Source: Deltaproteobacteria bacterium | GTDB taxonomy: Bacteria > Myxococcota_A > Polyangia > JAAYKL01 | Length of the DNA: 64,000 nt | Direction: 5' to 3' | Assembly: GCA_030595125.1 (NCBI GenBank) | Contig: JAUVDV010000011.1 | Location: forward strand, 1-64,000 | Shown here: positions 18,757 through 35,939 of the stretch, one piece after another | Position numbering within the stretch: the stretch's first letter is position 1 | Layout of the letters: each line of letters begins with the position of its first letter | The notes under the pieces: generated by a model | Database searches by the model: none | Told to the model about the DNA's origin: nothing | What the model saw: only the letters and a program-made list of their open reading frames with translations | Translations under genes and position numbers: made by a program

Positions 18757-18821
18757 CCCGATTCCGGGCAAGCTTTTCCGGATCTTCGCCCGGGCTTTGC
18801 CAAACCGAGCATTAAAAAATA

Positions 18822-18837
18822 TGGCACGCCGTTCGCA
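18822..18837 (+). promoter_or_regulatory. Candidate sigma-54 promoter for the dfx operon
   Basis: TGGCACG-CCGT-TCGC matches the -24/-12 consensus TGGCACG-N4-TTGC at all but one position and keeps the essential GG and GC at correct spacing. Transcription would start near 18848, upstream of the small gene at 18887 and of dfx. Confidence 0.6.
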
Positions 18838-18886
18838 ATGCATCCTCCTGACCGATGATGAACAGGGCGCGAAAGGCGATGAGACA

Positions 18887-19093
18887 GTGACTGAACCTTT
18901 TAACGAAAACCTCCTGAGAACAATCCGATTGACCCGGGAAATGCTGGCCCTCGCCGACGAGGGAGATCGGGATCGAAACGACGATTCCTGCGGGATCATC
19001 TACGGAATACTGAGGGATTCGGCCTATCGATTGAGGAAGCTCGTTGAAACGGAGTGCGAGAAACACAAGACGGCGAGCAAATGGGACGCATAG
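18887..19093 (+). CDS. Small conserved-looking protein of unknown function
   Basis: 68 residues from a GTG at 18887, beginning TEPFNENLLRTIRLTREM. The frame is open further upstream (to 18752), but those starts lie on or before the candidate sigma-54 promoter and transcript start near 18848, so I prefer this start. The protein is charged and helical, ending with LRKLVETECEKHK, and has a single mid-region Cys (DDSCGIIYGIL). It is the first gene of the presumed dfx operon. I do not recognise the family. Confidence 0.5.
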   Translation: MTEPFNENLLRTIRLTREMLALADEGDRDRNDDSCGIIYGILRDSAYRLRKLVETECEKHKTASKWDA

Positions 19094-19174: not shown

Positions 19175-19561
19175 ATGGCTATCAAAAGATTGCAAGTATT
19201 CAAGTGTGAATTGTGCGGAAACATCGTTGAGGCGATTCATGAAGGCGGCGGGAGTCTCGTGTGCTGCGGTCAGCCCATGAAACTCTACGAGGAGAATTCC
19301 GTGGACGCGGCCGTGGAGAAGCACGTGCCCGTAGTCGAGAAGATAGAAGGTGGGTACAAGGTCAAGGTGGGTGACGTGGCTCATCCCATGGGAGATGAAC
19401 ACTACATCGAGTGGATCGAGATCATCGCTGGCGGCAAAGCCTATCGCGAGTTTCTCGAGCCGGGTAGCGTGCCGGAGGCATCATTCCTCATCGACGCATC
19501 GGAAGTGGCCGTTCGTTCGTACTGCAATCTGCACGGGCTCTGGAAGAGCGGCGACCAATGA
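19175..19561 (+). CDS. dfx: Desulfoferrodoxin / superoxide reductase (2Fe-SOR)
   Basis: 128 residues. The N-terminal desulforedoxin domain binds Fe(Cys)4 ([11 protein letters not shown]...LVCCGQPM). The C-terminal domain carries the catalytic Fe(His4Cys) site: [24 protein letters not shown], and Cys-Asn-x-His in YCNLHGLW. It reduces superoxide to hydrogen peroxide without releasing oxygen, an anaerobe's alternative to superoxide dismutase, using electrons from rubredoxin. A strong AAGGAGG site precedes the ATG. It overlaps the following ferritin-like gene (ATGA). Peroxide removal could fall to the rubrerythrin encoded next in the operon. Confidence 0.97.
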
Positions 19562-20046
19562 GCGCCGTATTCAATGCCGAAGAAGTCCTGGAGATCGCTG
19601 TTCAGATCGAGAAGATCGGCGCTGCGTTCTACCGCCGGGCGGCAGAGATCGTGAAAGACCCGGCCGAAAAAAAGATGCTCGAAGATCTCGCTGTCATGGA
19701 GGACGGCCATGAAATCGGATTCGAGAACATGCGGGCGGATCCGGATATCCTGTCCCTGTTGATCGGTGATCCCGAGGGCGAAGCCGCGCTCTACTTGAGA
19801 GCCTTTGCGAGCGGTAACGTCTTTCCAAGGGACGTGAACTCCGCCTTTGATCTCGACGACAGCGTTACTATCGAGGTGATTCTGACCAAGGCGATAAAGA
19901 TGGAGCTCGAATCGATTGCGTTCTATCAGGGCATCAAGGATGCAATGTCGAATGATCTCGGCAGGAAAAAAGTCGAGGACATCATCCGCGAAGAGCGGCA
20001 GCACGTCACCATACTTAGCGAGAAGCTCGCTGCGGCGCTCTCCTAG
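19558..20046 (+). CDS. Rubrerythrin-like diiron (ferritin-like) protein without rubredoxin domain
   Basis: 162 residues in a four-helix-bundle pattern. There are two Glu pairs and two ExxH motifs: [29 protein letters not shown] and [10 protein letters not shown], as in the erythrin half of rubrerythrin. Probably reduces peroxide or oxygen, or handles iron. It overlaps dfx by 4 bases and is followed by full-length rubrerythrin. The middle segment (80-105) is an insertion relative to minimal erythrins. Confidence 0.85.
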
Positions 20047-20091
20047 GGGAAATCAATAGCTCAACAAGACAGCCGAAGAAGGAGTGGAAAT

Positions 20092-20667
20092 ATGCCAAGT
20101 GTAAAAGGTACCCAGACAGAGAAAAACCTGCTCACCGCATTTGCGGGCGAGTCCCAGGCGCGCAACCGCTACACGTTCTTTGCCAGCAAGGCCAAAAAGG
20201 ACGGCTACGTGCAGATCGCGGCAATTTTTACAGAGACGGCAGACCAGGAGAAGGAGCACGCCAAGCGGCTCTTCAAATTCCTCGAGGGCGGCGAGTTGGA
20301 GATCACCGCCGGCTTTCCGGCCGGGGTCATCGGCACCACATACGAGAACCTGATGGAATCGGCGGCTGGCGAAAACTTTGAGCACACCGAGATGTATCCC
20401 GGATTTGCCAAGGTGGCCCGGGAGGAGGGCCTCGACGTTATAGCAGCAGTATTCGAAGCGATCGCCGTGGCCGAAAAACAGCACGAAAAACAGTACAAAG
20501 ATCTCGCGCAGAATATCGAGGCGGGTCGGGTCTTCAAGCGAGACGGCAAGGTGTTCTGGATTTGTCGCAACTGTGGTTACCTGCACGAGGGAACCGAGGC
20601 GCCCGAAACCTGTCCGGCTTGTGTGCATCCCCAGGCTCACTTCGAGGTTCTGGGAGAGAACTGGTAA
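20092..20667 (+). CDS. rbr: Rubrerythrin (peroxide reductase)
   Basis: 191 residues, the classic length. The diiron four-helix domain (1-150) has ligands in FAGESQARNRY, DQEKEHAKRLF, FEHTEMYPGF and VAEKQHEKQY. A C-terminal rubredoxin domain follows with WICRNCGYLHEG and PETCPACVHP. The diiron site reduces hydrogen peroxide to water and the rubredoxin site feeds it electrons. It sits in the same operon as superoxide reductase, giving a two-step superoxide-to-water route. GAAGGAG precedes the start. Confidence 0.97.
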   Translation: MPSVKGTQTEKNLLTAFAGESQARNRYTFFASKAKKDGYVQIAAIFTETADQEKEHAKRLFKFLEGGELEITAGFPAGVIGTTYENLMESAAGENFEHTEMYPGFAKVAREEGLDVIAAVFEAIAVAEKQHEKQYKDLAQNIEAGRVFKRDGKVFWICRNCGYLHEGTEAPETCPACVHPQAHFEVLGENW

Positions 20668-20673
20668 AAGACG

Positions 20674-22158
20674 ATGGAGATCTCGGCAAAAACAAAAATA
20701 AACGACCTTCTCAAGGCGCATCCGTTCCTTGAGGATTTTCTCGTACAGTACAATCCGAAGTTCAAGCTGCTGGGGAAAAGGGCGATGCGGGCCATAGTCG
20801 GGCGAGTGGCCAACCTGAAGTTGGTAGCCTCGATTGGGGAGGTCGATCTGCCCACGTTCCTGGACGATATTTCAAGGGAAATCGAGCGCAAGACAGGAGA
20901 GACGGTGGCTGTCGGCGATCTCGATCTGGATGACCAGTTCAGCAAGACTGAGCGCATGGCCTTGCTCAAGCAGGTCATCAAAGATCTCCATGACGGCGGC
21001 GACCTCGGTGAAGCAAAGGAGAAGTTCGCCCTTGCGGTAGGGAACGTCAACACCTCCGAGATCGCGCAGATGGAGGAGCAGTTGATCCGCGAAGGCCTGG
21101 CGGTAGAGGAGGTTCAGCGGCTCTGCGATGTTCACGTGGGAGCGTTCAGCCAGATGCTCGATGAGCACGACGATCTGAAGATGCCTTCGGGCCACCCGGT
21201 GCATACCTACATGGAGGATAACCGGCGCATTGAGACGCTATTGGACGAGCTGAACAAGCACGCGCGAAAAATTGAAAGCGACGAAGGCGTAATGGACGAA
21301 ATCGGTCGCACGATAGAAGCGCTTGGAGGCATCGATAACCACTATACGCGAAAAGAAAACCAGCTCTTTCCACTTCTCGAGAAACATGGGGTAACGGCGC
21401 CGCCAAAAGTGATGTGGGGGATTCACGACGAGATACGAGGCTCTCTCAAGAAAGTGCGTCAAGTCCTGGACAAGAGAGATGCGCAGGCGCTCCCCCAGGC
21501 TGCTGCCGAGCTATCGCGCACTGCGGCCGAGATGATCTACAAGGAGGAGAAGGTGCTCTTCCCGCTATCCTTTGAAACGTTGACCGAAGAGGATTGGCAG
21601 GAAGTAAGGCGTGGTGAGGACGAGCTTGGATATGCATTTGCGCAGCCGGGGAGCGACTGGCCCGAGACATCCGATGAGGCCGGTGAGGTAGCTCTTCCCG
21701 CCGGCGCCGGGTCGCTACTCTCTCTCGATACAGGGTCGCTTTCACCGGAGCAGATCAACCTGATGCTGACTCACCTTCCACTGGACATCTCTTTTGTCGA
21801 TGAGAACGACGAGGTTTGTTACTACTCGGGGGGCGAGCGCCACTTTCCACGCAGCCCTGCGGTTATCGGCCGCAAGGTGCAAAACTGCCACCCGCCGGGG
21901 AGCGTACATATCGTTGAACGCATTTTGGACGAGTTCAAGGCGGGAAAAGAGAACACTGCCGAGTTCTGGATTCAGCTTCACGGAAAATTTCTGCACATCA
22001 GGTACTTTGCGCTGAGAGACGCCGATGGCACCTACCGCGGCTGCCTCGAGGCAGGACAAGATATCACCGAAATTCGCAAGCTCGAAGGCGAGCAGAGGCT
22101 GCTGAACTGGGAAAAGGGAGGTAAAGATGAAAACGAGGGAGATAACAAACGGAGTTAA
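20674..22158 (+). CDS. DUF1858-DUF438-hemerythrin-PAS multidomain protein
   Basis: 494 residues. An N-terminal DUF1858-like segment (INDLLKAHPFLEDFLVQYNPKFKLL) is followed by DUF438 (about 90-170). A hemerythrin/HHE diiron domain (about 180-325) has ligands in HPVHTYMEDNRRIE, IDNHYTRKENQLFPLLEKH and EEKVLFPL. A C-terminal PAS (about 360-480) contains VDENDEVCYYSGGERHFPRSP. The fused domains suggest binding oxygen or NO at the diiron site and signalling or repair. Related DUF438 proteins have been linked to iron-sulfur protection and NO detoxification. It overlaps the flavodiiron gene by 32 bases, implying coupled expression. Confidence 0.85.
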   Translation: MEISAKTKINDLLKAHPFLEDFLVQYNPKFKLLGKRAMRAIVGRVANLKLVASIGEVDLPTFLDDISREIERKTGETVAVGDLDLDDQFSKTERMALLKQVIKDLHDGGDLGEAKEKFALAVGNVNTSEIAQMEEQLIREGLAVEEVQRLCDVHVGAFSQMLDEHDDLKMPSGHPVHTYMEDNRRIETLLDELNKHARKIESDEGVMDEIGRTIEALGGIDNHYTRKENQLFPLLEKHGVTAPPKVMWGIHDEIRGSLKKVRQVLDKRDAQALPQAAAELSRTAAEMIYKEEKVLFPLSFETLTEEDWQEVRRGEDELGYAFAQPGSDWPETSDEAGEVALPAGAGSLLSLDTGSLSPEQINLMLTHLPLDISFVDENDEVCYYSGGERHFPRSPAVIGRKVQNCHPPGSVHIVERILDEFKAGKENTAEFWIQLHGKFLHIRYFALRDADGTYRGCLEAGQDITEIRKLEGEQRLLNWEKGGKDENEGDNKRS

Positions 22159-23326
22159 CTGGTTGGGCGCTATTGATTGGGATCGCCGTCTGTTCGACTC
22201 CCTGATCCCATTGCCCGACGGCACGAGTTACAACGCCTACCTCATCGAGGGAAGCGAGAAGACCGCACTAATAGACACGGTCGATCCTCCCATGACCGAC
22301 ACACTGATGGGGCAATTGGAAGATGTTCTCAGGATAGATTACGTCATTTCCAATCACGCCGAAGCGGACCACTCCGGGGCGATACCAGCGGTCCTTGCGA
22401 AGTACCCTGACGCAAAGCTACTCTGTTCGAAGCCGGCAAAAGCAATACTCATCGAGTCGCTGGCCATTTCCGAGGACAGGATGAGGGTTGTGGAAGACGG
22501 TGAGCGGCTGTCTCTTGGAGATAAAAACCTCCAGTTTATCTACACGCCGTGGGTGCACTGGCCGGAGACCATGGTCACCTACCTCGAGGAGAATGCAATT
22601 CTCTTCAGTTGCGACTTCTTCGGCTCTCACATTGCCGGCAGTGACCTCTATGCTACGGACGAAGGCCGCGTGTACGAAGCAGCAAAGCGGTACTTCGCCG
22701 AAATTATGCTGCCTTTCCGCGCACAGATCCGAAAGAATCTCGAGAAGCTCTCCACCTATGACATCTCGATGATCGCACCAAGCCACGGGCCGATTTATCA
22801 ACGACCCAAATTCATCGTCGATGCCTACGATAAATGGGCGAGCGACCGGGTAAAAAATCTCGTTGTCGTTCCATACGTGTCCATGCACGGCAGCACGCGA
22901 AAGATGGTTGAATACCTCGCAAGCTCACTGATGGAGCGGGGTGTGGCGGTACAGCAGTTCGATTTAACAACGACCGATATCGGCAAGCTGGCAATGGCGC
23001 TCGTCGACGCCGCCACGATCGTGATAGGCACACCTACCGTGCTTGGCGGTCCCCATCCGACCGCGGCTTATGCCGCGCTCCTCGCCAACGCGCTGCGAGC
23101 CAAGGCGAAGTTCCTGTCGGTTGTCGGTTCCTACGGATGGGGTGGTAAATCCGTGGAGACCCTCGCCGGGATGATCCCGAAACTGAAGGTAGAAGTTCTG
23201 AACCCCGTACTGTGCAAGGGGGCGCCCAACGAGGAAACGCGTCGCGCACTGGACGCGTTATCTGCCGAGATTGAGAAAAGGCACGCGGGAGAAATTGTAT
23301 CAAATCAGTCGAGGGTTCCGGCTTAA
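22127..23326 (+). CDS. A-type flavodiiron protein (NO and/or O2 reductase)
   Basis: 399 residues. The metallo-beta-lactamase-like diiron domain (1-250) has HAEADH, WVHWPETM, Asp in SCDFFGSH and His in PSHGPIY, so all ligands are present. A flavodoxin domain (about 255-390) carries the FMN loops VSMHGSTRKM and GTPTVLGGPHP. Reduces oxygen to water or NO to nitrous oxide using electrons from rubredoxin. Cytoplasmic. GGGAGG precedes the start. A second paralogue lies at 37241 with different ligand-flanking residues (HSEMDH), so the two may prefer different substrates. Confidence 0.95.
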   Translation: MKTREITNGVNWLGAIDWDRRLFDSLIPLPDGTSYNAYLIEGSEKTALIDTVDPPMTDTLMGQLEDVLRIDYVISNHAEADHSGAIPAVLAKYPDAKLLCSKPAKAILIESLAISEDRMRVVEDGERLSLGDKNLQFIYTPWVHWPETMVTYLEENAILFSCDFFGSHIAGSDLYATDEGRVYEAAKRYFAEIMLPFRAQIRKNLEKLSTYDISMIAPSHGPIYQRPKFIVDAYDKWASDRVKNLVVVPYVSMHGSTRKMVEYLASSLMERGVAVQQFDLTTTDIGKLAMALVDAATIVIGTPTVLGGPHPTAAYAALLANALRAKAKFLSVVGSYGWGGKSVETLAGMIPKLKVEVLNPVLCKGAPNEETRRALDALSAEIEKRHAGEIVSNQSRVPA

Positions 23327-23752: not shown

Positions 23753-25171
23753 CTATGGCCGGCCTTTGAGGTGTTTCACGTCATCCCACGCTTCGGGCAG
23801 CGGCTTGATCTTGGCGCTGGTGAGGTTCTTCCCCCCTGACCCCGGAACGTAGACCGGTGATCCGTGGCCATTTTTCTCGACCTCTTCCGCCAGTCTGATG
23901 AAGTGCTGGTAAGTTTTCTTGAGTTCGTAGAACCCGTGCCACCAGGCGTAATCCGGACCCATCATGGCCGAGCCCATGCGCGCCCGCCGTCCTTCGTGGT
24001 GCCAGTACTCATAGTATACCCACTCGATCTCCTCGTCGAAGACCGGCCACTTGGTCAGCATGTCCTTTTTGTAAAGCTCATCCATGCGTGTCTTGACCGG
24101 CTTGAAGTAGTTTTCGTTGTAGTTCTCGATAGCCTTGTCATAACGCGCCAGATAGTTTTCGGACCAGCGGCGTGAGTGGCACTGGCGGCAGACAGTGACC
24201 ATGTTTTCTCTTTCCTTGTCGCCGTCCCTGTCCTTGTTCAGAACCGTCAGGGGAGCCTGGCTCTCCCACTTGAGCCGGACGGAAAGCTCATGTGATGTGG
24301 CGAGCGGGCCAATGCCGGACATATGACAAACTGCGCATGTCGGCGCGGTGAAATCCGATCCCGGCTCCCAGATATCCGGCGCCACATCGAACTTCCACTC
24401 GCTGTTTTCGGCCAGGTAACGCTTGCCGTGCTTGGACTCAAAGTAAATCTCGTTCTGCGGATGATCCGGTCCCATGTGGCATTGACCGCAAGTCTCGGGC
24501 TTGCGCGCCTCGGCGATGGAGAAGCGGTGCGTGGTGTGACAAGTAGTGCACGTGCCGAGCGAACCGTCCGGGTTCTTGCGTCCGCAACCCTCGTTGGGCC
24601 AGTTGAGATCAGTCAACTTGCCGTCCGAGATGTCCGAGCCGTGGCACGCGTAGCAGCCCACGGCCCGTTCCACGTCGTTTGTCATGCCCTTGAGCCAGGG
24701 GTCCTGTATCTTGTCTGCCGTGATATGCCACGTGCGAGCATGTTTCGATTTTTTGAATTGTTCGGCCTCTTGAGGATGGCACCTCGCGCAGTCTTCCGGA
24801 GTGACAATGGAAGTGATTTTTACATCGTCGTACTTCTCGGTTCCCGGGCAGTCGACGGCATCCTTGTCCGTAATCAGGGCCTTGTGGCAGTCGAGGCAAG
24901 TGACGTTGGACCGGGCGTGCAAGGAGTGAGACCAGTCACGCACCTTGCCCTGTTCCTCCTTGGCGTGGCAAGCGATGCACTCGCGCTCCAGGTCGGTAAG
25001 GCCGCGCACCACCTTGATCTCCTTTGCGAGTTGAGGCGCTGCTCCGAGTGCTGATCCGCCGGTCGCTTTGGTTGGTTTTTGCACTTCCTTTTCAACCGCG
25101 ATAAGCAGCCCGACGACTACCGAGGCAGCGACGAATCCGGCCAGAGTCATGAGGAACAGTTTACTTTTCAT
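23753..25171 (-). CDS. Octahaem cytochrome c, hydroxylamine-oxidoreductase family (HaoA-like)
   Basis: 472 residues with an N-terminal membrane/signal segment (about 5-26). Eight CxxCH haem motifs are visible: CIACH, CLDCH, CARCH, CYACH, CTTCH, CGQCH, CAVCH and CRQCH. The C-terminal helical part contains YYEYWHHEGRRARMG and MGPDYAWWHGFYEL, as in HAO-family proteins. In ammonia oxidisers HAO oxidises hydroxylamine. In Campylobacterota a relative (epsilon-Hao) paired with a quinol-oxidising cytochrome reduces nitrite or hydroxylamine. The NapC/NrfH-type partner encoded just upstream (11-base overlap) favours the reductive direction here. Whether the HAO cross-linking Tyr is present needs an alignment. 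Confidence 0.88.
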   Translation of the reverse strand: MKSKLFLMTLAGFVAASVVVGLLIAVEKEVQKPTKATGGSALGAAPQLAKEIKVVRGLTDLERECIACHAKEEQGKVRDWSHSLHARSNVTCLDCHKALITDKDAVDCPGTEKYDDVKITSIVTPEDCARCHPQEAEQFKKSKHARTWHITADKIQDPWLKGMTNDVERAVGCYACHGSDISDGKLTDLNWPNEGCGRKNPDGSLGTCTTCHTTHRFSIAEARKPETCGQCHMGPDHPQNEIYFESKHGKRYLAENSEWKFDVAPDIWEPGSDFTAPTCAVCHMSGIGPLATSHELSVRLKWESQAPLTVLNKDRDGDKERENMVTVCRQCHSRRWSENYLARYDKAIENYNENYFKPVKTRMDELYKKDMLTKWPVFDEEIEWVYYEYWHHEGRRARMGSAMMGPDYAWWHGFYELKKTYQHFIRLAEEVEKNGHGSPVYVPGSGGKNLTSAKIKPLPEAWDDVKHLKGRP

Positions 25172-25739
25172 TTTTCATCTCCCGGGTAGCGGCCACCCCT
25201 CTTTTGTCAAACAGATAACGATGGAACTCGCCGTGGAATTCGTCCTTGTGGCAGTCCACACACTTCCTTTTTCCATCCATGCGCTGGTACGCCCGGTGGG
25301 CGATAATCATTTTGATCGACCCGCCACCCGGAGTGAGGTTGTCGTGGCATCTTCTGCACGCGCTGTCGTGAGAGTGCTTGCGGGCGCTCTCCTTTAACCC
25401 TTCCCAATCCATCTCATACGGATCCGCCTCCCCGAACAGGTGGGCCCAGATGTCTGTAACGCCGTCACGGGTCTTGGTGCGAATCATGGGAAGAATGTCG
25501 GGTTCGATGTGGCAGTCCGAGCACTTCGCCACAATGCCGTGCTCGTTTTGATAGTGTGGGGACTTCATCCAACCCTGCTCGGCGACGAGCTGCATCTCAT
25601 GACAGGAGGTGCAGAACTCCGTGGTCGACGTGATGACTATCGTCTGACCAACGGCCAAAATCCCCAGCGCGCCGACAAGCGCTCCTGCGGCGAGCAGCCT
25701 GAATGTCTTTGTCTTCAGAAAAGAAAGTATCTTGCCCAA
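25161..25739 (-). CDS. NapC/NrfH-family tetrahaem membrane cytochrome c (HaoC-like)
   Basis: 192 residues starting at TTG 25739. One N-terminal transmembrane helix (about 12-35) anchors a periplasmic domain with four haem motifs: CTSCH, CSDCH, CRRCH and CVDCH. The family takes electrons from menaquinol and passes them to a periplasmic reductase. Its gene directly abuts the cysE stop and overlaps the octahaem gene by 11 bases, so it is the likely electron donor to the HaoA-like protein, as in haoCA pairs. Confidence 0.9.
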   Translation of the reverse strand: MGKILSFLKTKTFRLLAAGALVGALGILAVGQTIVITSTTEFCTSCHEMQLVAEQGWMKSPHYQNEHGIVAKCSDCHIEPDILPMIRTKTRDGVTDIWAHLFGEADPYEMDWEGLKESARKHSHDSACRRCHDNLTPGGGSIKMIIAHRAYQRMDGKRKCVDCHKDEFHGEFHRYLFDKRGVAATREMKNEK

Positions 25740-26660
25740 CTATATTCCGCCTCCACGCTCGAATCGATCTTGCCGGACCTGGGCCTGGGTAATGCGACTT
25801 TCAGGGGACACACTTCGAGTTAACCATACATTACCCCCGATTACCGATCCACGCCCGATGGTCACCCTTCCGAGAATCGTTGCGCCCGAATAAATGACGG
25901 CATCGTCTTCCACGACAGGATGGCGCTGGATCCCCTTTATCGGGTTGCCGTTCTCGTCGAGGGGCAGGCTCTTGGCGCCCAGCGTGACGCCTTGGTAGAT
26001 ACGCACGCGGTCGCCGATCTCGCAGGTCTCGCCGATGACCACTCCGGTGCCGTGATCGATGAAAAACTTCTCACCGATGGTGGCCCCCGGATGGATGTCG
26101 ATTCCGGTGATGCTGTGGGCGTGCTCGGTGATGATTCGCGGGATGAGCGGCACCTCCAGGAGATACAGCTCGTGGGCCAGCCGGTAGTTTGTAATCGCCT
26201 GGATACCCGGATAACAGAAGATCGCCTCACCGGCGCTTGTGGCTGCCGGATCGCCCTCGTAGGCTGCCGCGACGTCAGTGGAAAGGAGCGCGCGGATGCG
26301 CGGCAAGCGGGAGAGGAACGTATGCGTGATGCTCATGGACTCGTCTTCGCATTCGGCGCAGCGGTACGTTGTGTCCTGCGGGCAGACAAAGCACAGACCT
26401 CGCCGGATCTGTTCCTGCAGAGTCCGAAGCACCCGGTCGAGGGTCGACCCGAGATGGAACTGCAGGCTCTGCGCGCTCAGCTCGGATGTGCCGAAGTACC
26501 CGGGAAAGAGGACCGAACGGAGATCTTCTACCATGTCGATGAGCACGTTCCTCGACGGCAGGTCTGCTCTTCGGTTCCCCCGCAATAGCCATCGGGACTC
26601 ACCGTTGCACTGGCTGCAAAGCTCGTCGACAACTTCTTTCAGATCTATTTCACTCATCAC
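25740..26660 (-). CDS. cysE: Serine O-acetyltransferase with internal CxxC pair
   Basis: 306 residues. The C-terminal left-handed beta-helix hexapeptide domain (about 175-290: [30 protein letters not shown]) carries the catalytic His in HGTG. It makes O-acetylserine for cysteine synthase. The protein ends GGGI; a C-terminal Ile is what inserts into the CysK active site in the cysteine synthase complex. An unusual CFVC-x8-CAEC cluster near residues 90-105 could bind a metal. It overlaps cysK by 11 bases. No gap separates it from the haem protein gene that follows. Confidence 0.9.
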
Positions 26661-27585
26661 CGTCCTCGAAAAGCCATGTTGAAAGATAGCGCTCGCCCGT
26701 GTCCGGCACGATCGCGACGATCATCTTTTCCTCGTTTTCCGGTCGCTTCGCGAGTTCGAGCGCGGCCCAGACATTTGCTCCTGACGAGATACCGGCGAGG
26801 ATGCCCTCTTCCCTGGCGAGTCGACGGGCCATCTTGCCGGCGTCCTCATGCCGCACCTTGATGATCTCGTCCAGGATGTCCGCGTTCAGTACCTCGGGCA
26901 CAAATCCCGCGCCGATGCCCTGGATCTTGTGGGGACCGGGCTGCCCGCCGGACAGCACCGCCGATTCGACCGGCTCTACCGCGACCGCCTGGAAGCCGGG
27001 CTTGCGATCCTTGAGCGCCTCGGCCACCCCGGTGATCGTTCCTCCGGTTCCCACCCCGGCGACCAGGATGTCCACATTGCCGTCGGTGTCTGCCCAGATC
27101 TCCTGCGCGGTGGTTCGACGATGGACCTCGGGATTGGCCGGGTTCGAAAACTGCTGCAGCATTATGTAAGAGTCGTTCGCCTCGACGAGTTCCGTTGCCT
27201 TGTCGATCGCCCCCTTCATGCCCTGCGCGCCCGGTGTGAGCGCGATCTTTGCGCCGAATGCCACAAGGAGCTTGCGGCGTTCGATGCTCATCGTGTCAGG
27301 CATGGTCAATACGAGCCGGTATCCCCGAGCCGCGCAGATGAATGCGAGGGCGATTCCCGTGTTGCCGCTGGTCGGTTCCACGATCACGGTGTCTTCTTTG
27401 ATGAGCCCGTCGCGTTCGGCTGCCTCGATCATGGCCAGGCCGATTCTGTCCTTGACGCTGGAACACGGGTTGAACGACTCGACTTTTACAAGAACGTCTG
27501 CATTGAGCTCGCCCGTCACGCGGTTCAAACGCAAGATGGGTGTCCGGCCCACGAGATCGGTAATACTGCCAGCAATTTGCCCCAT
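26650..27585 (-). CDS. cysK: Cysteine synthase A (O-acetylserine sulfhydrylase)
   Basis: 311 residues, the family norm. The PLP lysine is in [11 protein letters not shown], the substrate loop in [11 protein letters not shown], the phosphate-binding glycines in [10 protein letters not shown] and the C-terminal Ser in GISSGAN. It combines O-acetylserine with sulfide to give cysteine. It overlaps the serine acetyltransferase gene, which is unusual only in that both are embedded in a cytochrome operon. The extra cysteine could serve iron-sulfur repair or thiol supply under stress (inference). Confidence 0.96.
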
Positions 27586-27623: not shown

Positions 27624-27652
27624 TTAATGGTAGGCATTCATCGGGGAGTCAA
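27624..27652 (-). promoter_or_regulatory. Possible internal sigma-70 promoter before cysK
   Basis: On the minus strand TTGACT, a 17-base spacer and CATTAA precede cysK by about 40 bases. The -35 overlaps the end of the cytochrome gene. A CATTAATG palindrome lies just downstream. It would allow cysK-cysE expression apart from the longer operon. A weak match only. Confidence 0.3.
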
Positions 27653-28059
27653 TTGTTTTCTGCGCCTTCCTCGATCCATTGCTTGAGGGCCTGGATCCGA
27701 TCCTCGGTGAGGGCCGGGAATATCTTCGGCGGCATGTTGGGCACAGCCGTCTTCTCCACCGAGGTGATAATCTTGCTGCCTTCAGGATCGCCGGGCCTGA
27801 TGAAACCGGCGGTCTTGCCGCCCTTCACCACGTCTTCGTAGTTGAGGATGCTCAGATCTCCGTCCGCGTCCTCGCCGTGGCAGCGGATGCAGTGATCCAT
27901 CAAGATGGGATGGACGGTCTTTGAGAATGAGATCTTTCCCTCGTCCGTCTTGTTCACCTCGATAGGATCGGTGCTTCCGCCGGCCGAGGCGCAACTTGTC
28001 AACGCAAGCGACAGCGCCGGCAGCGCCGTCAACGCGACGATAATGATCGTTTTTTTCAC
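27649..28059 (-). CDS. Monohaem c-type cytochrome lipoprotein
   Basis: 136 residues from the GTG at 28059, chosen because AAAGGAGG lies 6 bases upstream. A longer frame to 28089 has no such site. The signal peptide ends in a lipobox-like LTSC. One haem site CIRCH is followed by a likely axial Met in VPNMPPKIF. It resembles the single-haem domains in which CxxCH is preceded by FSKTVHPILMDHC. Probably a periplasmic electron carrier or sensor tethered to a membrane. Position between an outer-membrane protein and the cys/hao genes suggests it serves the HaoA-like system. Confidence 0.82.
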   Translation of the reverse strand: MKKTIIIVALTALPALSLALTSCASAGGSTDPIEVNKTDEGKISFSKTVHPILMDHCIRCHGEDADGDLSILNYEDVVKGGKTAGFIRPGDPEGSKIITSVEKTAVPNMPPKIFPALTEDRIQALKQWIEEGAENN

Positions 28060-28098
28060 GTCAAACCTCCTTTTGGAAAAATGGGTCATCGAACATTT

Positions 28099-28719
28099 TT
28101 ACTTTGCAAAACGGAACGTAGCATCGAGGGTTCCGCCCGCGACAAGGCCGCGGTGGTTGTCCGGATCGTCGACCGAAAACAGGGGCGCCACGTAGGGGCT
28201 CAGGCCGAGCTGGAAATTGAAGGTTTTACCCGGGCGCTTGAAGTCGAGTCCAAAGTAGCCTCCAATCCGTGGCCCCAGAGCCCAGAAAGACGGTCCCCGC
28301 TCTTCGCCGGAGGGTCCCGATTTGTAATCCGGTCCGTAGTGCAGGGCGATTCCGAGGCTCGGACCCACGATGATATCGACGTCTCCCCCTTGCGGATGCC
28401 TGAAGTTCAGGACGACCTCCGGTTCGAATTGCAACATCTTGAAAGCCGCGGCAAAGAGAATCGGTCTCATGAGCGGCACATTTACCAGGACGCTGATTTG
28501 TTCGGTGACTCCGATTTCGGTAAAAACCGAGATCTCCAACGCCATCCCCCCCTTTGCTCCGGGAGGGCTTGCCACGCACATCCTCACGTCGTCATAGCGT
28601 GCGCCGGCCTGTGCCTTGATGCCGAAAACTACCTGATCGCTATATGATTGCTCCTGAGCGCTGCTGTTGGCCGGGAATGTGACCAGGACCAACATCGCGA
28701 TAAAAAGCATTTTGGCCAT
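28099..28719 (-). CDS. Putative outer-membrane beta-barrel protein
   Basis: 206 residues from the ATG at 28719, which overlaps the thioesterase stop (TGATG). The signal peptide (1-22) ends NSSA. The mature part alternates hydrophobic and polar residues in strand-sized blocks (QVVFGIKAQAGARYDDV, FNFQLGLSPYVAPLFSV) and ends with a Phe-rich strand (GTLDATFRFAK), typical of small barrels. No family recognised. Probably envelope located. Confidence 0.7.
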   Translation of the reverse strand: MAKMLFIAMLVLVTFPANSSAQEQSYSDQVVFGIKAQAGARYDDVRMCVASPPGAKGGMALEISVFTEIGVTEQISVLVNVPLMRPILFAAAFKMLQFEPEVVLNFRHPQGGDVDIIVGPSLGIALHYGPDYKSGPSGEERGPSFWALGPRIGGYFGLDFKRPGKTFNFQLGLSPYVAPLFSVDDPDNHRGLVAGGTLDATFRFAK

Positions 28720-29192
28720 CACGTTGTCTCTTGTCTGTGTTCCAACATCCTTTGGTGGATTGCCCGTGTTTCTTCCCAATCCTTTTTCTCTTCATCTGTG
28801 CTCGGCTCGAAACTCGGTACCCGTTGGGGTTTGCTGTCGGCGTCGATCGCCACCATGAACACAGTTCCGACGCAGCAGGGGCGGCGATCCCAATGCGCCT
28901 TGTCCAGGGCAAAGACCTGCACTTTCACTCCGCAGGTGTGAGTGGAGACATAGACCACCTGCGCCACCACTTCGGCGATTTCGCCCTTCTTGACAGCGGC
29001 TCGAAACTCGAGCGTATCCAGAGAGGCGGTGACGAAATTACAGCGCGCAAAACGCGCAGCTGCCAGGCCGGCTGCCCTGTCGACCAGGGCCAGGATCTTG
29101 CCGCCGAAAGCTGTTCCGTACGGATTGGTGTCGCCCGGAAAAATTTCTTCAAAGATAGAGATAGGCGATGTATCGAGATCGCTTTTCTTCAT
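28719..29192 (-). CDS. Acyl-CoA thioesterase (hotdog fold, YciA/BACH type)
   Basis: 157 residues in one hotdog domain: GDTNPYGTAFGGKILALVDRAAGLAAARFA (helix and catalytic loop), then FVTASLDTLEFRAAVKKGE and a final VFMVAIDADSKPQRVPSF. Hydrolyses acyl-CoA. It is the first gene of the minus-strand run that continues through cysK-cysE to the haem proteins. It is preceded by a candidate sigma-54 promoter at 29250-29265. Why a thioesterase leads this operon is not evident. Confidence 0.88.
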   Translation of the reverse strand: MKKSDLDTSPISIFEEIFPGDTNPYGTAFGGKILALVDRAAGLAAARFARCNFVTASLDTLEFRAAVKKGEIAEVVAQVVYVSTHTCGVKVQVFALDKAHWDRRPCCVGTVFMVAIDADSKPQRVPSFEPSTDEEKKDWEETRAIHQRMLEHRQETT

Positions 29193-29249
29193 TTCAAAAT
29201 CCTCAAGACTTCTCAGGCGAAGCCGATTGCCTGACCACTGTCAGGCGTT

Positions 29250-29265
29250 TGCATACAACATGCCA
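29250..29265 (-). promoter_or_regulatory. Candidate sigma-54 promoter (minus strand) for the thioesterase-to-haoA operon
   Basis: On the minus strand TGGCATG-TTGT-ATGC keeps the GG (-24) and GC (-12) with two mismatches to consensus. The predicted start near 29238 lies 46 bases before the thioesterase ATG. The activator palindrome at 29340-29360 is about 75 bases upstream. Confidence 0.5.
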
Positions 29266-29326
29266 GGACGGGTACCCGGAATTTACCTGGAATTACTGGT
29301 CATCATGCCCCAAATATTGGAATAAC

Positions 29327-29360
29327 GAGACAGTTATTTTGAGACAGACCATGTCTCAAT
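29327..29360. promoter_or_regulatory. Candidate activator sites: TGAGACA palindrome
   Basis: TTGAGACA-N5-TGTCTCAA at 29340-29360 is a perfect 8-bp dyad, with an extra CGAGACA at 29327-29333. It lies almost midway between two divergent sigma-54 promoters (-24 elements at 29265 and 29431), about 71-75 bases from each. This is the arrangement expected for shared enhancer sites. The 303-base gap 29193-29495 holds only these elements. Confidence 0.7.
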
Positions 29361-29430
29361 AAGCGGATGTAGAAGTCGACTCGCCGCGACAACGCGTTGA
29401 AATGATTAGTAGACTTCGGTAACAGGGCAG

Positions 29431-29446
29431 TGGCACACTGATTGCG
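29431..29446 (+). promoter_or_regulatory. Sigma-54 promoter for the ferritin-like/iorAB operon
   Basis: TGGCACA-CTGA-TTGC differs from consensus at one position. Start near 29457, about 40 bases before the ATG at 29496, and a GGGAGGGG ribosome site follows. Confidence 0.75.
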
Positions 29447-29495
29447 TAAAGGGGAACCGTCAAAAAAACAAGCCTGAACGTGGGAGGGGTGCGCT

Positions 29496-30011
29496 ATGTC
29501 GAACGAAGCGATAGAGAAGGTGGCCGATGGCCTGTTGAAGGCGATACGTGCCGAACGGGAAGGTCAGCATTTCTACCTGATGGCTGCAAAGACGTGCCAG
29601 GATCCCATGGGACGGGAGGTCTTCGAGCAGCTGGCCGCAGAAGAACTCGGCCATGCAAAATTTCTGCAAATGCAATATCAGTCCGTGCTCGACACCGGCA
29701 AGCCCGACGAGAACCTCAAGCTCGGACCACAAATGGATCTCTCGGGGCCGAATCCGATTTTTTCCGATCAAATCCGGTCCCGCCTGAAGGATGCCCATTT
29801 CGAGATGACCGCGTTGTCGGTCGGCGCGCAGCTCGAGCTCGACGCCCAGAAGTATTACCTGGAAAGGGCGGCCGAATCGGAGGTTATTTATATCAAGACG
29901 TTCTATTCGGAGCTCGCCGACTGGGAGGCGGGCCACTACCGCGCCCTGCTCACCCAACAGGAATCGCTCAAAGAGGATTACTGGTCGGGTGATGGGTTTG
30001 CTCCGTTCTAG
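29496..30011 (+). CDS. Rubrerythrin-like diiron (ferritin-like) protein
   Basis: 171 residues with the four-helix diiron pattern: AIRAEREGQHFY, AAEELGHAKFL, GAQLELDAQKYY and DWEAGHYRALL. No rubredoxin domain. It is the first gene behind a good sigma-54 promoter and lies 19 bases before iorA, so it is co-expressed with a ferredoxin-linked oxidoreductase that could supply low-potential electrons. Probable peroxide/oxygen reductase or iron handling. Confidence 0.85.
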   Translation: MSNEAIEKVADGLLKAIRAEREGQHFYLMAAKTCQDPMGREVFEQLAAEELGHAKFLQMQYQSVLDTGKPDENLKLGPQMDLSGPNPIFSDQIRSRLKDAHFEMTALSVGAQLELDAQKYYLERAAESEVIYIKTFYSELADWEAGHYRALLTQQESLKEDYWSGDGFAPF

Positions 30012-30030: not shown

Positions 30031-31923
30031 ATGGCCAAGTTGAAAGACATGTTGGTGAAGCGCGAGTCGTGGTCTGACCTGATTATGGGCAACTACGCGG
30101 TTGCCAGGGCGATGATCGACACCGGGACCAGGGTGATCACCACCTTCCCCGGGTCTCCGACGCCGGAGATCGCGGCGGCCCTCGATTCGGTCGACAGGGA
30201 CAAGCGCGATTACTACTTCGAGTACTCCACCAACGAGAAGGTGGCCCTGGAGGTTGCGGCGGGAGCCTCGCTGAACGGGCATCTCTCCACCGTCTTTTTC
30301 AAGTCGGTGGGGTTGAACGTGGCGTCTGACTCCCTCATACAGCTGGCGCTGATGGAGCTGATCGGCGGCATGGTGATCATTCTCGGTGACGACCCGGGAG
30401 CAAACTCGTCCCAGAACGAGCAGGACAACCGATGGTTTGCCAGAATGTCGTACATCCCGATGCTGGAGCCGGCCAATCCCCAGGAGGCATACGACATGTA
30501 CCGGGAGGCGGTCAGGCTCTCGAAGGAGCGAAGGATCCCGATCTTTCTGCGCATGACGACCCACGTGTGTCACGCGCGGGAAGTCGTGAAATTCAATGGC
30601 ATCGAGACCGGCGCCCCGGACTGGACCCCCGGGTTCGACGCTGCCAACGGGCCTTATGTTCCCATCGTCAGCGCCGTCTTCCCGCTCAAGCGAAAGGCTC
30701 TGGCCAAGCTGGCCGACTTCGAGGAGCTGGGCAACGAGTGCAAGCTGAACGAAGCGCTCGCGCCAAACGGTTCGAAACCCGTCGACGGGAAGAGGCTCGG
30801 CGTGATCTCCTCTGCGCTTGTGGCAATGTCGGTGCTGGAGAATCTCGAAGAAACCAGGGCATCCGTGGATCTGCTCAAACTCGGGATAACCTACCCCCTT
30901 CCTCGCAAGATGATCGTCGAATTTCTGGCCGACCGCGACGAGGTGCTGGTTCTCGAGGAGCTGGATTCGGTGCTGGAGAACGAGATCAAGGCGGCCGCGT
31001 GGGATGCCGGCGTCGATTGCAAGATCCTCTCTCGGAAGGACCGCGAGGACTTCATGGGCGAGTTGGGGCCCAGAAGGACGATGAAGATCCTGTCCGATGT
31101 CTGGCCATCGATTTTTGATGCCCCCGCCGAGATTGTCCCCTCGAAGGAGATCTCTCCACGACTTCCCCAGATGTGCCCCGGCTGCGGTCACAGATCGGCC
31201 TTCCACGCCATTCGCAAGGCCCTCGAGGACGACACCATAACCGTGGCCGACATCGGCTGCCACTCCCTGGGCTTCATGCCTCCGTACAACATGGGAGAGG
31301 TGCTGTTCTCCATGGGACACGGCCTCTCCACCGCCTCGGGGTTGTCTATTGGAAACGACACGAGAAAGGTGCTCACCTTTATCGGCGACTCCACCCTGAT
31401 CCACGCGGGGCTGCCGGGAATCGTCAACGCCGCCAACCACGATCACAATATCACGCTGGTGCTCATGGACAACGGCACCACCGCCATGACCGGTCACCAG
31501 CCCCGGTTCGGGTCCGGCGAGGTCGGGGACAAGATCCCCTTCGTCCCGTTGCTGGAGGCCCTCGGGGTGAAATTCATCAGAGAAACGGACACATACAAAC
31601 AGGCAACTCTCACCCAGCACATCCGGGATGCCAACGCTCACAAGGGGTTCGCCATGGTGATCGCGCGGCACCCGTGCATGCTCAAGTTCACGCGTAAACA
31701 GCGCAAGGATATGCCAGACTTGAAGATGCCGAACGTGCGGGTCGACCAGGAGAAGTGCGAGCGAATTTACGAGTGCGTCGCCGAATTTGGTTGCCCGTCG
31801 TTCCAGAAAAACGAGGACGGCTCGGTGACGGTCAGCGAAGAGCTTTGCATAGGAGATGGTTCTTGCCTGCAGACCTGTCCGGCGCAGGCACTGTGGCGCC
31901 CAAAGCCCGGAGGTGGCAAATGA
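30031..31923 (+). CDS. iorA: Indolepyruvate:ferredoxin oxidoreductase, alpha subunit
   Basis: 630 residues, close to the family norm. The pyrimidine-binding domain (about 15-190: GNYAVARAMIDTGTRVITTFPGSPTPEI) and the thiamine-diphosphate domain with GDSTLIHAGLPGIVNAANHDHN are present. The C-terminus has two cysteine clusters (KCERIYECVAEFGCPS and CIGDGSCLQTCP) for iron-sulfur centres. With IorB it oxidatively decarboxylates aryl pyruvates to aryl-acetyl-CoA and reduces ferredoxin. Ends with ATGA overlap to iorB. Confidence 0.95.
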   Translation: MAKLKDMLVKRESWSDLIMGNYAVARAMIDTGTRVITTFPGSPTPEIAAALDSVDRDKRDYYFEYSTNEKVALEVAAGASLNGHLSTVFFKSVGLNVASDSLIQLALMELIGGMVIILGDDPGANSSQNEQDNRWFARMSYIPMLEPANPQEAYDMYREAVRLSKERRIPIFLRMTTHVCHAREVVKFNGIETGAPDWTPGFDAANGPYVPIVSAVFPLKRKALAKLADFEELGNECKLNEALAPNGSKPVDGKRLGVISSALVAMSVLENLEETRASVDLLKLGITYPLPRKMIVEFLADRDEVLVLEELDSVLENEIKAAAWDAGVDCKILSRKDREDFMGELGPRRTMKILSDVWPSIFDAPAEIVPSKEISPRLPQMCPGCGHRSAFHAIRKALEDDTITVADIGCHSLGFMPPYNMGEVLFSMGHGLSTASGLSIGNDTRKVLTFIGDSTLIHAGLPGIVNAANHDHNITLVLMDNGTTAMTGHQPRFGSGEVGDKIPFVPLLEALGVKFIRETDTYKQATLTQHIRDANAHKGFAMVIARHPCMLKFTRKQRKDMPDLKMPNVRVDQEKCERIYECVAEFGCPSFQKNEDGSVTVSEELCIGDGSCLQTCPAQALWRPKPGGGK

Positions 31924-32510
31924 GTTCGTTCAACATTTACATGTGCGGAGTCGGGGGCCAGGGCATCGGCATGCTTGCGGAGGTACTGTCCCGGGCGTGT
32001 CTCGACGCCGGTCACAAGATCATGGGGTGTGACACCCACGGGCTGGCTCAGCGCGGAGGGATCGTCGTCTCCCATCTGCGGATTGGTGTGGAGGCGAGGA
32101 CTCCACGAGTGCCGGATGGGAATGCCAATCTGGTGATCGCTCTGGAGCGCCTCGAAGCCCTCCGGGCCGCCGACGCCATGCTCGCAAACAGCGGCACAGT
32201 GATTTACTACGATACTATCTATCAGCCTATTCACGTCCGGATGGGGAAGACGAGCTACCCCGAGGCGGACGCGCTGGAAGAGAAGGTCAAGACCAGGGGC
32301 GGCAAGGTGGAGCGCGTTCAACTCGATGGCATCGAGGATCCGAGGATGCAGAACGTGGCCCTTCTGGGACGGCTGGCGGCGACGGGTGTCGTCGAAGGGG
32401 TGAGCGCACAGATAATCGAGCAGGCCCTGCGCGATGCATTGCCCGCAAAAGCGCTCGGCGCAAACCTGGCCGTCTTCGAACAGGCGGCTGAGAAAATCGA
32501 TCAGCAATAG
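31920..32510 (+). CDS. iorB: Indolepyruvate:ferredoxin oxidoreductase, beta (gamma-domain) subunit
   Basis: 196 residues starting at the ATG overlapping the iorA stop. The open frame extends further back inside iorA but that is not a real start. It has the 2-oxoacid oxidoreductase gamma-type fold: NIYMCGVGGQGIGMLAEVL with the GxGGQG motif, DTHGLAQRGGIVVSHLRIG and NLVIALERLEALRA. Partner of IorA. Confidence 0.94.
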   Translation: MSSFNIYMCGVGGQGIGMLAEVLSRACLDAGHKIMGCDTHGLAQRGGIVVSHLRIGVEARTPRVPDGNANLVIALERLEALRAADAMLANSGTVIYYDTIYQPIHVRMGKTSYPEADALEEKVKTRGGKVERVQLDGIEDPRMQNVALLGRLAATGVVEGVSAQIIEQALRDALPAKALGANLAVFEQAAEKIDQQ

Positions 32511-32531
32511 GCTCGGGTTCAAGATTCGGTG

Positions 32532-33665
32532 ATGAAAAACGACAAAGCAAGAATCGAGATAGCCGGTCATCCTCATTACAGTTTTGACGTGGCCGGGGGT
32601 GGATCTCTGTTTGAGGCGCTGTGTGCGCAAAACATCTCCATTCCCTCTGCCTGCGGCGGGCATGGTTTCTGTGGCCTCTGCAGGGTCAAGGTGTTGCGTG
32701 GCGGCGGCGAAAGGACGCCTGGCGAGCAGACGCATATCACCGGCGATCTTGTTCGGGAGGGGATGCGCCTGTCGTGCCAGGTCAAAGTCGAGCAGGATAT
32801 AGAGATCGAGCTACCGCCCGAGGTGTTCAATGCAAAGAAGTGGCGTTGCAAGGTGCGATCCAGCCGCAACGTGGCCACTTTCATCAAGGAGATCGTACTC
32901 GATCTTCCTGACAACGAGGAGCCGGCGTTCCGTGCCGGCAGTTATGTTCAAGTCGAGTGCCCGCCCCACACCGTCCGTTATCGGGACTTCGACATCGACG
33001 AGAAGTATCGGGGCGAATGGGACAGGCGCGAACTCTTGCACCATGTCTCGACCTGCGCCCGGACGATTACACGCACATATTCTCTGGCCAACTACCCCGG
33101 CGAGCAGGGAATCATCATGCTCAACGTGCGCATCGCCGCCCCACCGCGCGAAGCCCTGCACGTCCGTCCGGGTATCGCATCGTCCTATGTCTTCAGCCTC
33201 AAACCCGGTGACGAGGTCGACGTCAGCGGTCCTTTTGGAAACTTCTTTGCCGGGGATACCGATGCAGAGATGTGCTTCGTGGCCGGGGGAGCCGGGATGG
33301 CGCCCATGCGTTCACACATATTGGATCAGCTCAGACGCCTGAAGACGACGAGGAAGGTGACATTCTGGTACGGCGCGAGGAGTCTCTCGGACGCGTTCTA
33401 CGTGGATGAATTCGATAGCCTGGCGCGTGAACACGACAACTTCGACTGGACATTGGCGCTATCTGCTTTGGCTCGCGAAGACAAATGGAAAGGCGACACG
33501 GGATTGATCCACCGCGTCCTCCATGACAATTATCTGAAGAACCACCCCACGCCGGGAAACATCGAGTACTACCTTTGCGGACCGCCGGCCATGAACGCGG
33601 CGGTCACGAAGATGCTGGCGAACCTGGGAGTCGAAAAGAAGAACATCATGTTCGATGATTTTTAG
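32532..33665 (+). CDS. NqrF-like 2Fe-2S/FAD oxidoreductase lacking the membrane anchor
   Basis: 377 residues. An N-terminal plant-type 2Fe-2S domain has Cys41, Cys47, Cys50 and Cys82 (CGGHGFCGLC...LSCQV). A ferredoxin reductase-like FAD domain (RTYSLANYP) and NAD domain (MCFVAGGAGMAPMRSHIL, YLCGPPAMNAAV) follow. It matches subunit F of the sodium-pumping NADH:quinone reductase, but the N-terminal transmembrane helix is absent and no other nqr genes are near. Following iorAB by about 20 bases, it may move electrons between NADH and iron-sulfur or diiron partners. Start at ATG 32532; a GTG at 32529 is equivalent. Confidence 0.88.
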   Translation: MKNDKARIEIAGHPHYSFDVAGGGSLFEALCAQNISIPSACGGHGFCGLCRVKVLRGGGERTPGEQTHITGDLVREGMRLSCQVKVEQDIEIELPPEVFNAKKWRCKVRSSRNVATFIKEIVLDLPDNEEPAFRAGSYVQVECPPHTVRYRDFDIDEKYRGEWDRRELLHHVSTCARTITRTYSLANYPGEQGIIMLNVRIAAPPREALHVRPGIASSYVFSLKPGDEVDVSGPFGNFFAGDTDAEMCFVAGGAGMAPMRSHILDQLRRLKTTRKVTFWYGARSLSDAFYVDEFDSLAREHDNFDWTLALSALAREDKWKGDTGLIHRVLHDNYLKNHPTPGNIEYYLCGPPAMNAAVTKMLANLGVEKKNIMFDDF

Positions 33666-33692: not shown

Positions 33693-34202
33693 TTATCCCG
33701 CTTCGACATCGAATTCGGGGATATCGAACCAGAAGCCGTTGCCCTTTACCGCATCGAGCTCTGCGTTGACCAGCGCCAGGTGTCCGGATTCGATCTCGAC
33801 GAAACGGCTGAAGAAGCTTTTTGCCTCGTCCGGGAGCTTCTCCACCAGCCCGGCGTAGAACTGGCTGGTTTCGGCCTCGATTGCAGCAGCCGTTTCCAGG
33901 GCGCCGAGTTCGGCAGTGGCGGTTTTTTTCACGTCGCCGCTCGCCAGCTTGCCGACCTCCTTTTCGATCCAGTCGAGGGAGGGTAGAGTGGTTTCGAGAT
34001 CTTCCGCCGAGAGCTTGTTGCCTTCCTTCCACTCCTTGAGCTTCATCTCCAGGTACTTGACGTGATCGTTCTCCTCGCCGGCCATGAGTCCAAATACCCT
34101 GCGGGCAACGGGATCCTTGGCGGCAGCCTGGGATTCAACGTAGTGCTCGCGAATTCTGACCTCATACTCGATCGCCGTTATTATCGCTTCTTCAATTTGC
34201 AT
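33693..34202 (-). CDS. Rubrerythrin-like diiron (ferritin-like) protein
   Basis: 169 residues with two diiron helix pairs: AIEYEVRIREHYVES, GEENDHVKYLE, AIEAETSQFYAGL and EIESGHLALV. No rubredoxin domain. Convergent with the NqrF-like gene and divergent from another ferritin-like gene at 34404. They share an intergenic region with TGAGACA sites and two sigma-54-like promoters. Confidence 0.83.
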   Translation of the reverse strand: MQIEEAIITAIEYEVRIREHYVESQAAAKDPVARRVFGLMAGEENDHVKYLEMKLKEWKEGNKLSAEDLETTLPSLDWIEKEVGKLASGDVKKTATAELGALETAAAIEAETSQFYAGLVEKLPDEAKSFFSRFVEIESGHLALVNAELDAVKGNGFWFDIPEFDVEAG

Positions 34203-34244
34203 GTCACTTCATCCTTTCATGAATTCGGGCTCGCAACAGCACGT

Positions 34245-34260
34245 AGCAAATCTCAGGCCA
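34245..34260 (-). promoter_or_regulatory. Candidate sigma-54 promoter (minus strand) for the ferritin-like gene at 33693
   Basis: On the minus strand TGGCCTG-AGAT-TTGCT keeps GG and GC with two mismatches in the -24 box. Predicted start is near 34233, about 30 bases before the ATG. Confidence 0.5.
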
Positions 34261-34310
34261 AGAGCGGGGTGCCCCCCATTGCTAATAATGTATCATTGTT
34301 GACGCTCTTT

Positions 34311-34329
34311 TGAGACAATTACTGAGACA
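34311..34329 (+). promoter_or_regulatory. Candidate activator sites: two TGAGACA repeats
   Basis: TGAGACA at 34311-34317 and 34323-34329 are direct repeats with a 12-base period. They lie between the minus-strand promoter at 34245-34260 and the plus-strand promoter at 34358-34373, only about 29 bases before the latter -24 box. Confidence 0.65.
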
Positions 34330-34357
34330 CTTTTCTCGATATCCAGGGCAAAACGGG

Positions 34358-34373
34358 TGGCACGGTGTTTGCT
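34358..34373 (+). promoter_or_regulatory. Sigma-54 promoter for the ferritin-like/nitronate monooxygenase genes
   Basis: TGGCACG-GTGT-TTGCT is a full consensus match. Transcription start is expected near 34385, just ahead of AAGGAG and the ATG at 34404. Confidence 0.8.
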
Positions 34374-34403
34374 GTAGTTGGGGCAAAGTACAAGGAGAAA
34401 ACA

Positions 34404-34919
34404 ATGGATAGAATGACGTCTATAGAATTGGCCATACGCAACGAGCACACAGAGATGGAGTACTATCTGGAGCAAGCGCGTCGGTCCAAAAACCCGGTGG
34501 CGAAATTGCTCTTCGAAACTCTGGCGGCGGACGAAAAGGAGCATATGGTTCGTATCGAGGGGTTGCATCGCAAGCTCACTGCAGACGGATCATGGCCGGA
34601 CGACCTCCCGATAGAGGTGGCGGGCACCGAAATTCTGGGGCGGGTCAACAAGCTCATGGAAAAGAAGGACACCTCTGCCTCGCACGACGATGATGATATT
34701 GCGGCCCTGGAGAAAGCCGCGAAGGGGGAGGCGGATGGATCCAGGTTTTACAAGGAGTTGGCGCAGGTTTGCGATAACCAAAAGGAGAAAAAATTCTTCG
34801 AGTTCCTCGCGAAGATCGAGCGCGAGCACCTGCTTTCCATACAGGATTCCCTCTTCTACCTGAGGGATCCGGATGCCTGGTTCGAGGAAAAAGGTCGTTC
34901 CAGTTTCGACGGTGGCTAG
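34404..34919 (+). CDS. Rubrerythrin-like diiron (ferritin-like) protein
   Basis: 171 residues from ATG 34404, preceded by AAGGAG. An earlier in-frame ATG at 34365 lies inside the promoter and is excluded. Ligand motifs: IRNEHTEMEYYLEQ, AADEKEHMVRIEG, AAKGEADGSRFYKEL and KIEREHLLSIQ. It differs from its paralogues by an acidic/His insertion (SHDDDDIAA). It directly precedes the nitronate monooxygenase gene. Confidence 0.84.
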   Translation: MDRMTSIELAIRNEHTEMEYYLEQARRSKNPVAKLLFETLAADEKEHMVRIEGLHRKLTADGSWPDDLPIEVAGTEILGRVNKLMEKKDTSASHDDDDIAALEKAAKGEADGSRFYKELAQVCDNQKEKKFFEFLAKIEREHLLSIQDSLFYLRDPDAWFEEKGRSSFDGG

Positions 34920-35923: not shown

Positions 35924-35939
35924 TGGCACGCGTGTTGCA
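35924..35939 (+). promoter_or_regulatory. Sigma-54 promoter for the rubredoxin-ferritin-flavodiiron operon
   Basis: TGGCACG-CGTG-TTGCA is a perfect consensus match. Predicted start near 35950, about 60 bases before the rubredoxin ATG. Confidence 0.8.

Follow-up and report, generated by a model that had tools for sequence, protein, structure and literature searches.

In Escherichia coli, the sigma-54 activator NorR drives norVW (flavorubredoxin), a flavodiiron-type detoxification system, from an operator of the form GT-N7-AC. In Desulfovibrio vulgaris, the divergent sigma-54 operons orp1 and orp2 are served by a single activator, DVU2106, together with IHF, and palindromic activator sites lie upstream of the promoters, at reported positions of -131 and -88 (PMC3897727). 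A divergent sigma-54 architecture with one activator is therefore not new. The main text of the D. vulgaris sigma-54 regulome contains no rubrerythrin, desulfoferrodoxin or GAGACA/TGTCTC site (PMC4641369), and we found no earlier description in the open-access literature of the regulon presented below.

The locus analyzed here lies in a 64,000-nucleotide stretch of deltaproteobacterial DNA (the window), in which positions 29193–29495 separate seven leftward genes (gaps of -52 to 63 bases) from four rightward genes (gaps of -4 to 19 bases). Control of all eleven from the two outward-facing promoters in this region is plausible. The likeness to orp1/orp2 is one of arrangement: in each case an anaerobe has divergent sigma-54 operons, a single activator and palindromic upstream sites. 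The genes, however, are not those of the orange protein complex, and whereas IHF sites have been shown for orp1/orp2, the window has only weak IHF-like matches, with a one-mismatch site at 29402 (minus strand) on the right arm and none as good in the left box–promoter interval. A preliminary description had proposed that one central operator exerts sigma-54 control in both directions. That proposal held up: the genome has a sigma-54 gene (PF04552 at G000:C158, 215.7 bits), the promoters are conserved, and the same box array precedes other sigma-54 promoters, both in the window and in many other genomes, which supports it as the best reading. We consider it likely that 29193–29495 is a bidirectional sigma-54 region at which a PAS-AAA+-Fis activator, most likely the product of 17234–18709, acts through an array of YGAGACA boxes on an O2/ROS (possibly also NO) regulon. 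The features are collected in Table 1.

Table 1. Coordinates of the genes, boxes and promoter elements of the putative regulon in the window.
Feature	Position	Strand	Support
Probable cognate activator, PAS – AAA+ (GAFTGA) – Fis-type HTH	17234–18709	+	PF00158, PF13426, PF02954; orthologues, conserved cysteines
Three YGAGACA boxes, 13-base steps, directly 3' of activator gene	18718–18750	+	
-24/-12 element TGGCACGCCGTTCGCA, operon of 68-aa protein – desulfoferrodoxin – rubrerythrin	18822–18837	+	one base changed in L040, L042
Conserved 68-aa protein, helical hairpin, GTG start	18887–19093	+	AlphaFold2 mean pLDDT 93.2
Desulfoferrodoxin, two rubrerythrin-type proteins, DUF438-hemerythrin-PAS protein, flavodiiron protein	19175–23326	+	
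Octahaem HAO-like cytochrome, eight CxxCH	23753–25171	-	PF13447; PDB 4qo5 E=5.6e-47, 1fgj E=7e-23
NapC/NirT-type membrane cytochrome	25161–25739	-	PF03264
Hexapeptide acyltransferase, serine acetyltransferase-like (CysE)	25740–26660	-	PF00132
PLP enzyme, cysteine synthase-like (CysK)	26650–27585	-	PF00291
c-type cytochrome	27649–28089	-	PF07635
Conserved ~223-aa protein, no family match, uncertain start codon	28099–28770	-	60% relative in L049
4HBT-family thioesterase, leftward gene 1	28719–29192	-	PF03061
Leftward-operon -24/-12 element TGGCATGTTGTATGCA	29250–29265	-	unchanged in L040 and L042
Third YGAGACA box (CGAGACA) of the dyad's operator	29326–29332	+	
Dyad TTGAGACA-GACCA-TGTCTCAA, two convergent YGAGACA boxes	29339–29359	none	unique core, kept in two congeners
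Rightward-operon -24/-12 element TGGCACACTGATTGCG	29431–29446	+	conserved in L040 and L042
Ferritin/rubrerythrin-like protein, rightward gene 1	29496–30011	+	PF02915
Indolepyruvate:ferredoxin oxidoreductase alpha-like (IorA-like)	30031–31923	+	TIGR03336 528 bits, below cut-off 650.9
Oxidoreductase beta subunit-like (IorB-like)	31920–32510	+	PF01558
NqrF-like NADH reductase	32529–33665	+	TIGR01941 535 bits, above cut-off 295
-24/-12 element TGGCCTGAGATTTGCT, to rubrerythrin-like gene 33693–34202	34245–34260	-	
Two YGAGACA boxes, second divergent operator, 12-base step	34311–34329	+	
-24/-12 element TGGCACGGTGTTTGCT, to rubrerythrin-like gene starting near 34404	34358–34373	+	

Both -24/-12 elements of the central region keep the GG-N10-GC spacing and fit the sigma-54 promoter core with its TGGCAC/TTGC flanks. 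The dyad stands 73 bases from the minus element and 71 bases from the plus element, in agreement with the 71–75 bases first given. Matches of this kind are near chance level in the window (32 found, 26.7 expected), so we dropped match counts alone as evidence, and the promoters need contextual support. For both, such support comes from the recurring boxes and from conservation of promoters and dyad in two congeners (L040 and L042), in which the dyad arms are retained, the minus promoter shows no change and the plus promoter a single-base difference. One might suppose that only one promoter is truly sigma-54-dependent and served by the boxes, the other match being incidental and its operon otherwise driven; the chance-level count and the weaker -12 of the minus element (ATGC) would agree with this. 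The minus element is, however, unchanged across three genomes and part of a conserved block, and a phase-keeping indel of 10 bases lies between it and the boxes. We regard such a one-sided arrangement as improbable.

The indel is seen between the minus promoter and the first shared box, which are 62 bases apart in the window and 72 bases apart in the congeners. At the second divergent region (34203–34404), the corresponding distances are 52 and 62 bases. Two separate indels of exactly 10 bases, about one helical turn, are suggestive, though not proof, of upkeep of helical phase by a looping activator. Of the symmetric layout first described, the near-equal gaps stand for the window, but exact symmetry is not essential, as in L040 the two -24 starts are 93 and 82 bases away from the dyad centre. 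Only in the window's genus did we find the divergent thioesterase/ferritin arrangement. Relatives of the HAO-like protein outside the genus lacked the promoter–box pair, and an extension of the divergent HAO/ferritin layout beyond the genus through them was set aside.

The dyad itself (TTGAGACAGACCATGTCTCAA, 29339–29359) had been called a 21-base perfect dyad. Its 8-bp arms are perfect, but the 5-bp spacer is not palindromic, so the word fits the arms only. GAGACA-N3-12-TGTCTC occurs a single time in the 5,387,722-base genome, at this dyad. The dyad is real and conserved, yet it does not stand alone: it is one pair within a cluster of three YGAGACA boxes (at 29327 and 29341 on the plus strand and 29357 on the minus strand), and the congeners have four boxes, in mixed orientation, at the equivalent operator. 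Because of these four boxes, and of the direct repeats and mixed orientations at other sites, the dyad was ruled out as the operator unit.

Those other sites include two in the window. The box arrays at 18718–18750, which begins 9 bases after the activator stop codon, and at 34311–34329 both lie upstream of -24/-12 elements, at 18822 (plus strand) in the first case and at 34260 (minus) and 34358 (plus) in the second. At the 34358 promoter the boxes are nearer than usual (34–46 bases). Mechanically called open reading frames with starts in 18752–18886 and 34365–34403 run across the -24/-12 elements, and the genes therefore probably begin at 18887 (GTG) and 34404 (ATG). At least two GAGACA boxes were present 20–180 bases upstream of five of the nine strong -24/-12 sites in the window, against 0.073 expected at random positions. 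The region 29193–29495 appears to be one of at least three sites run by the nearby activator, and the preliminary description overlooked both this multi-site regulon and its probable activator at 17234–18709. A perfect -24/-12 element at 35924–35939, before a rubredoxin–rubrerythrin–ferritin–flavodiiron operon, has no YGAGACA boxes in the window; the counterpart of this operon in another genome (G003, locus L160) has four. A box triple in L007, from the window's own genome, has no -24/-12 element nearby.

The window also holds a divergent sigma-54-like pair at 43923–44114, with TGGCACGACGATTGCC at 43938 (minus), TGGCACGAACCTTGCC at 44099 (plus) and the palindrome GAGAATATTCTC between them at 44023–44034. 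On one side of it lies the gene of a YHS-domain protein and on the other an RND efflux operon (OEP, CusB-like with a heavy-metal domain, ACR_tran), and a histidine kinase and an NtrC-type regulator (40994–43550) adjoin it. This is probably a metal-responsive two-component system.

We compared 20 loci from GTDB species representatives, fetched with the conserved 68-aa gene, and used the 18 outside the genus to rank hexamers by the number of -24/-12-like sites with at least two copies upstream. GAGACA came first among 2080 hexamers, at 13 of 36 sites; the next unrelated hexamer reached 4, random positions gave a mean of 0.75 and a maximum of 5 in 2000 trials, and the stretches downstream of those promoters gave 1 of 34. 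As the loci were fetched through a gene that adjoins the activator, this ranking demonstrates coupling at activator-linked promoters, not a genome-wide regulon. C or T precedes 90% of the clustered boxes, which makes YGAGACA the operator unit. The boxes lie mostly 75–105 bases before the -24, as for an enhancer-type operator repeated roughly 80–150 bases upstream, and their commonest neighbour spacing is 10–14 bases in either orientation.

These positions bear on an alternative in which a repressor or a sigma-70-linked regulator uses the boxes as its operators and the -24/-12 matches are coincidental. In several relatives, boxes do lie upstream of the activator gene with no -24/-12 match nearby, and for that reason some boxes may repress. 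The boxes are nevertheless the top hexamer upstream of -24/-12 sites, mostly at the classic activator distance and not downstream, and we give the repressor explanation very little credence compared with activation from the boxes. The activator-upstream boxes are triples (L060:7942, L063:8034, L067:7928, L070:7999 and L074:7916), some just before TATGCTA-like -10 sequences. Autorepression is possible there; the window's own activator gene has no such upstream boxes.

A pattern scan of 59 genomes for dyads connected the operator to the activator. The dyad examined sat 20–220 bases before an outward -24/-12-like site in all seven genomes whose copy of the activator is at least 50% identical and in none of 14 others, three of which (G011, G012 and G013) have an activator relative at 44–47% (Fisher p ~9e-6, by hand calculation). 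In G003, box-plus-promoter hits fall on contigs other than the activator's, before a 68-aa gene/desulfoferrodoxin/rubrerythrin operon and a rubredoxin/rubrerythrin/ferritin/flavodiiron operon. Hits in G012 and G013 precede the 68-aa gene and rubrerythrins, and the G017 dyad lies 5' of a gene that reads, by inspection, as a hemerythrin-like protein. In L046–L048, which have the activator, no box pair was found at the usual distance; their boxes and the next promoter are ~540 bp apart. At L158 of G003, a divergent sigma-54 pair beside a succinate-dehydrogenase-like operon and a proline-dehydrogenase-like gene has only one box; it was left out of the counts.

The activator gene is ~11 kb from the central region. 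Its product has the AAA+ sigma-54 interaction domain with GAFTGA and the Fis-type HTH of a bacterial enhancer-binding protein. Its orthologues, mostly 47–57% identical, stand beside both the boxes and the 68-aa gene in the majority of loci; the boxes in turn adjoin both genes in nearly all loci, in several phyla. The region could be real and its boxes bound by another activator of the genome, with the gene at 17234 an unrelated neighbour. At least 26 proteins in the genome match the activator query, so the pairing of activator and boxes rests on synteny and co-occurrence, and binding of the 17234 product to the boxes is our inference. Against another activator stand the loci from several phyla in which the boxes adjoin orthologues of this one, and the dyad–promoter pairs, restricted to genomes with this activator at 50% identity or more. 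We think it unlikely that a different protein binds the boxes, and take the 17234–18709 product as the candidate.

Three PAS cysteines (C-x9/10-C-x3-C) are invariant among the aligned orthologues, which suggests a thiol/redox or Fe-S sensor; matches of the PAS domain in the PDB were generic. Like NorR, the protein would be a sigma-54 activator of flavodiiron-type detoxification, but it has a PAS rather than a GAF sensor and differs in its YGAGACA operator, and it scored 347.8 bits against the NorR model (cut-off 476). Its best NCBIfam match over PAS, AAA+ and HTH was PrdR, a PAS-containing sigma-54 regulator with different target genes, at 389.1 bits (cut-off 795). In six orthologues (L045, L046, L047, L048, L049 and L051), the alignment shows an N-terminal extension that, by inspection, resembles low-molecular-weight tyrosine phosphatase/arsenate reductase, a putative domain that the window's activator does not have.

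The small protein that adjoins the activator across several phyla is confidently predicted as a two-helix hairpin and had no match in Pfam or NCBIfam. Among the targets, the label haoA in the preliminary description is justified as far as homology goes: the octahaem cytochrome has eight CxxCH motifs and matches HAO (PDB 1fgj) and, most closely, 4qo5, a chain listed as a hypothetical multiheme protein. Its NapC/NirT partner hints at a reductive role. Seen alongside the sister operons, which encode desulfoferrodoxin, rubrerythrin, hemerythrin and flavodiiron proteins, the target content points to O2/ROS defence. NO or hydroxylamine may also come into play, given the HAO-like and flavodiiron proteins.

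The sequences themselves show the promoters, the boxes, their conservation, the target genes and, from genome to genome, a coupling to the activator, and these fit the following scheme. The PAS-AAA+-Fis activator, most likely that of 17234–18709, would bind the array of YGAGACA half-sites midway between the outward -24/-12 promoters. Its PAS domain would sense an oxidant, on which the protein would oligomerise through its AAA+ assembly, and ATP hydrolysis would open sigma-54 RNA polymerase at both promoters. The leftward output would run from the thioesterase to the HAO-like cytochrome and the rightward output from the ferritin-like to the NqrF-like protein. The same activator and boxes would drive the operon of the 68-aa protein, desulfoferrodoxin, rubrerythrin and flavodiiron protein and the divergent rubrerythrin pair, as one regulon.

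The overall design is of a known kind; what appears undescribed is the pairing of activator and operator, the set of targets and the 68-aa hairpin partner. On balance, we favour an undescribed sigma-54 regulon for O2/radical defence, with a Cys-rich PAS activator (a phosphatase-like fusion in relatives), flexible direct or inverted YGAGACA arrays and a dedicated 68-aa helical-hairpin partner, in Myxococcota/'Deltaproteobacteria', Zixiibacteriota and, from one genome, Desulfohalobiaceae. These anaerobic lineages have many sigma-54 activators, most of them without an assigned signal, operator or targets. For one activator family there is now an operator defined at the sequence level and a coherent set of targets, which makes binding, signal and the small partner protein directly testable. 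If the reading is true, oxygen-defence genes of uncultured anaerobes would be under sigma-54 control.
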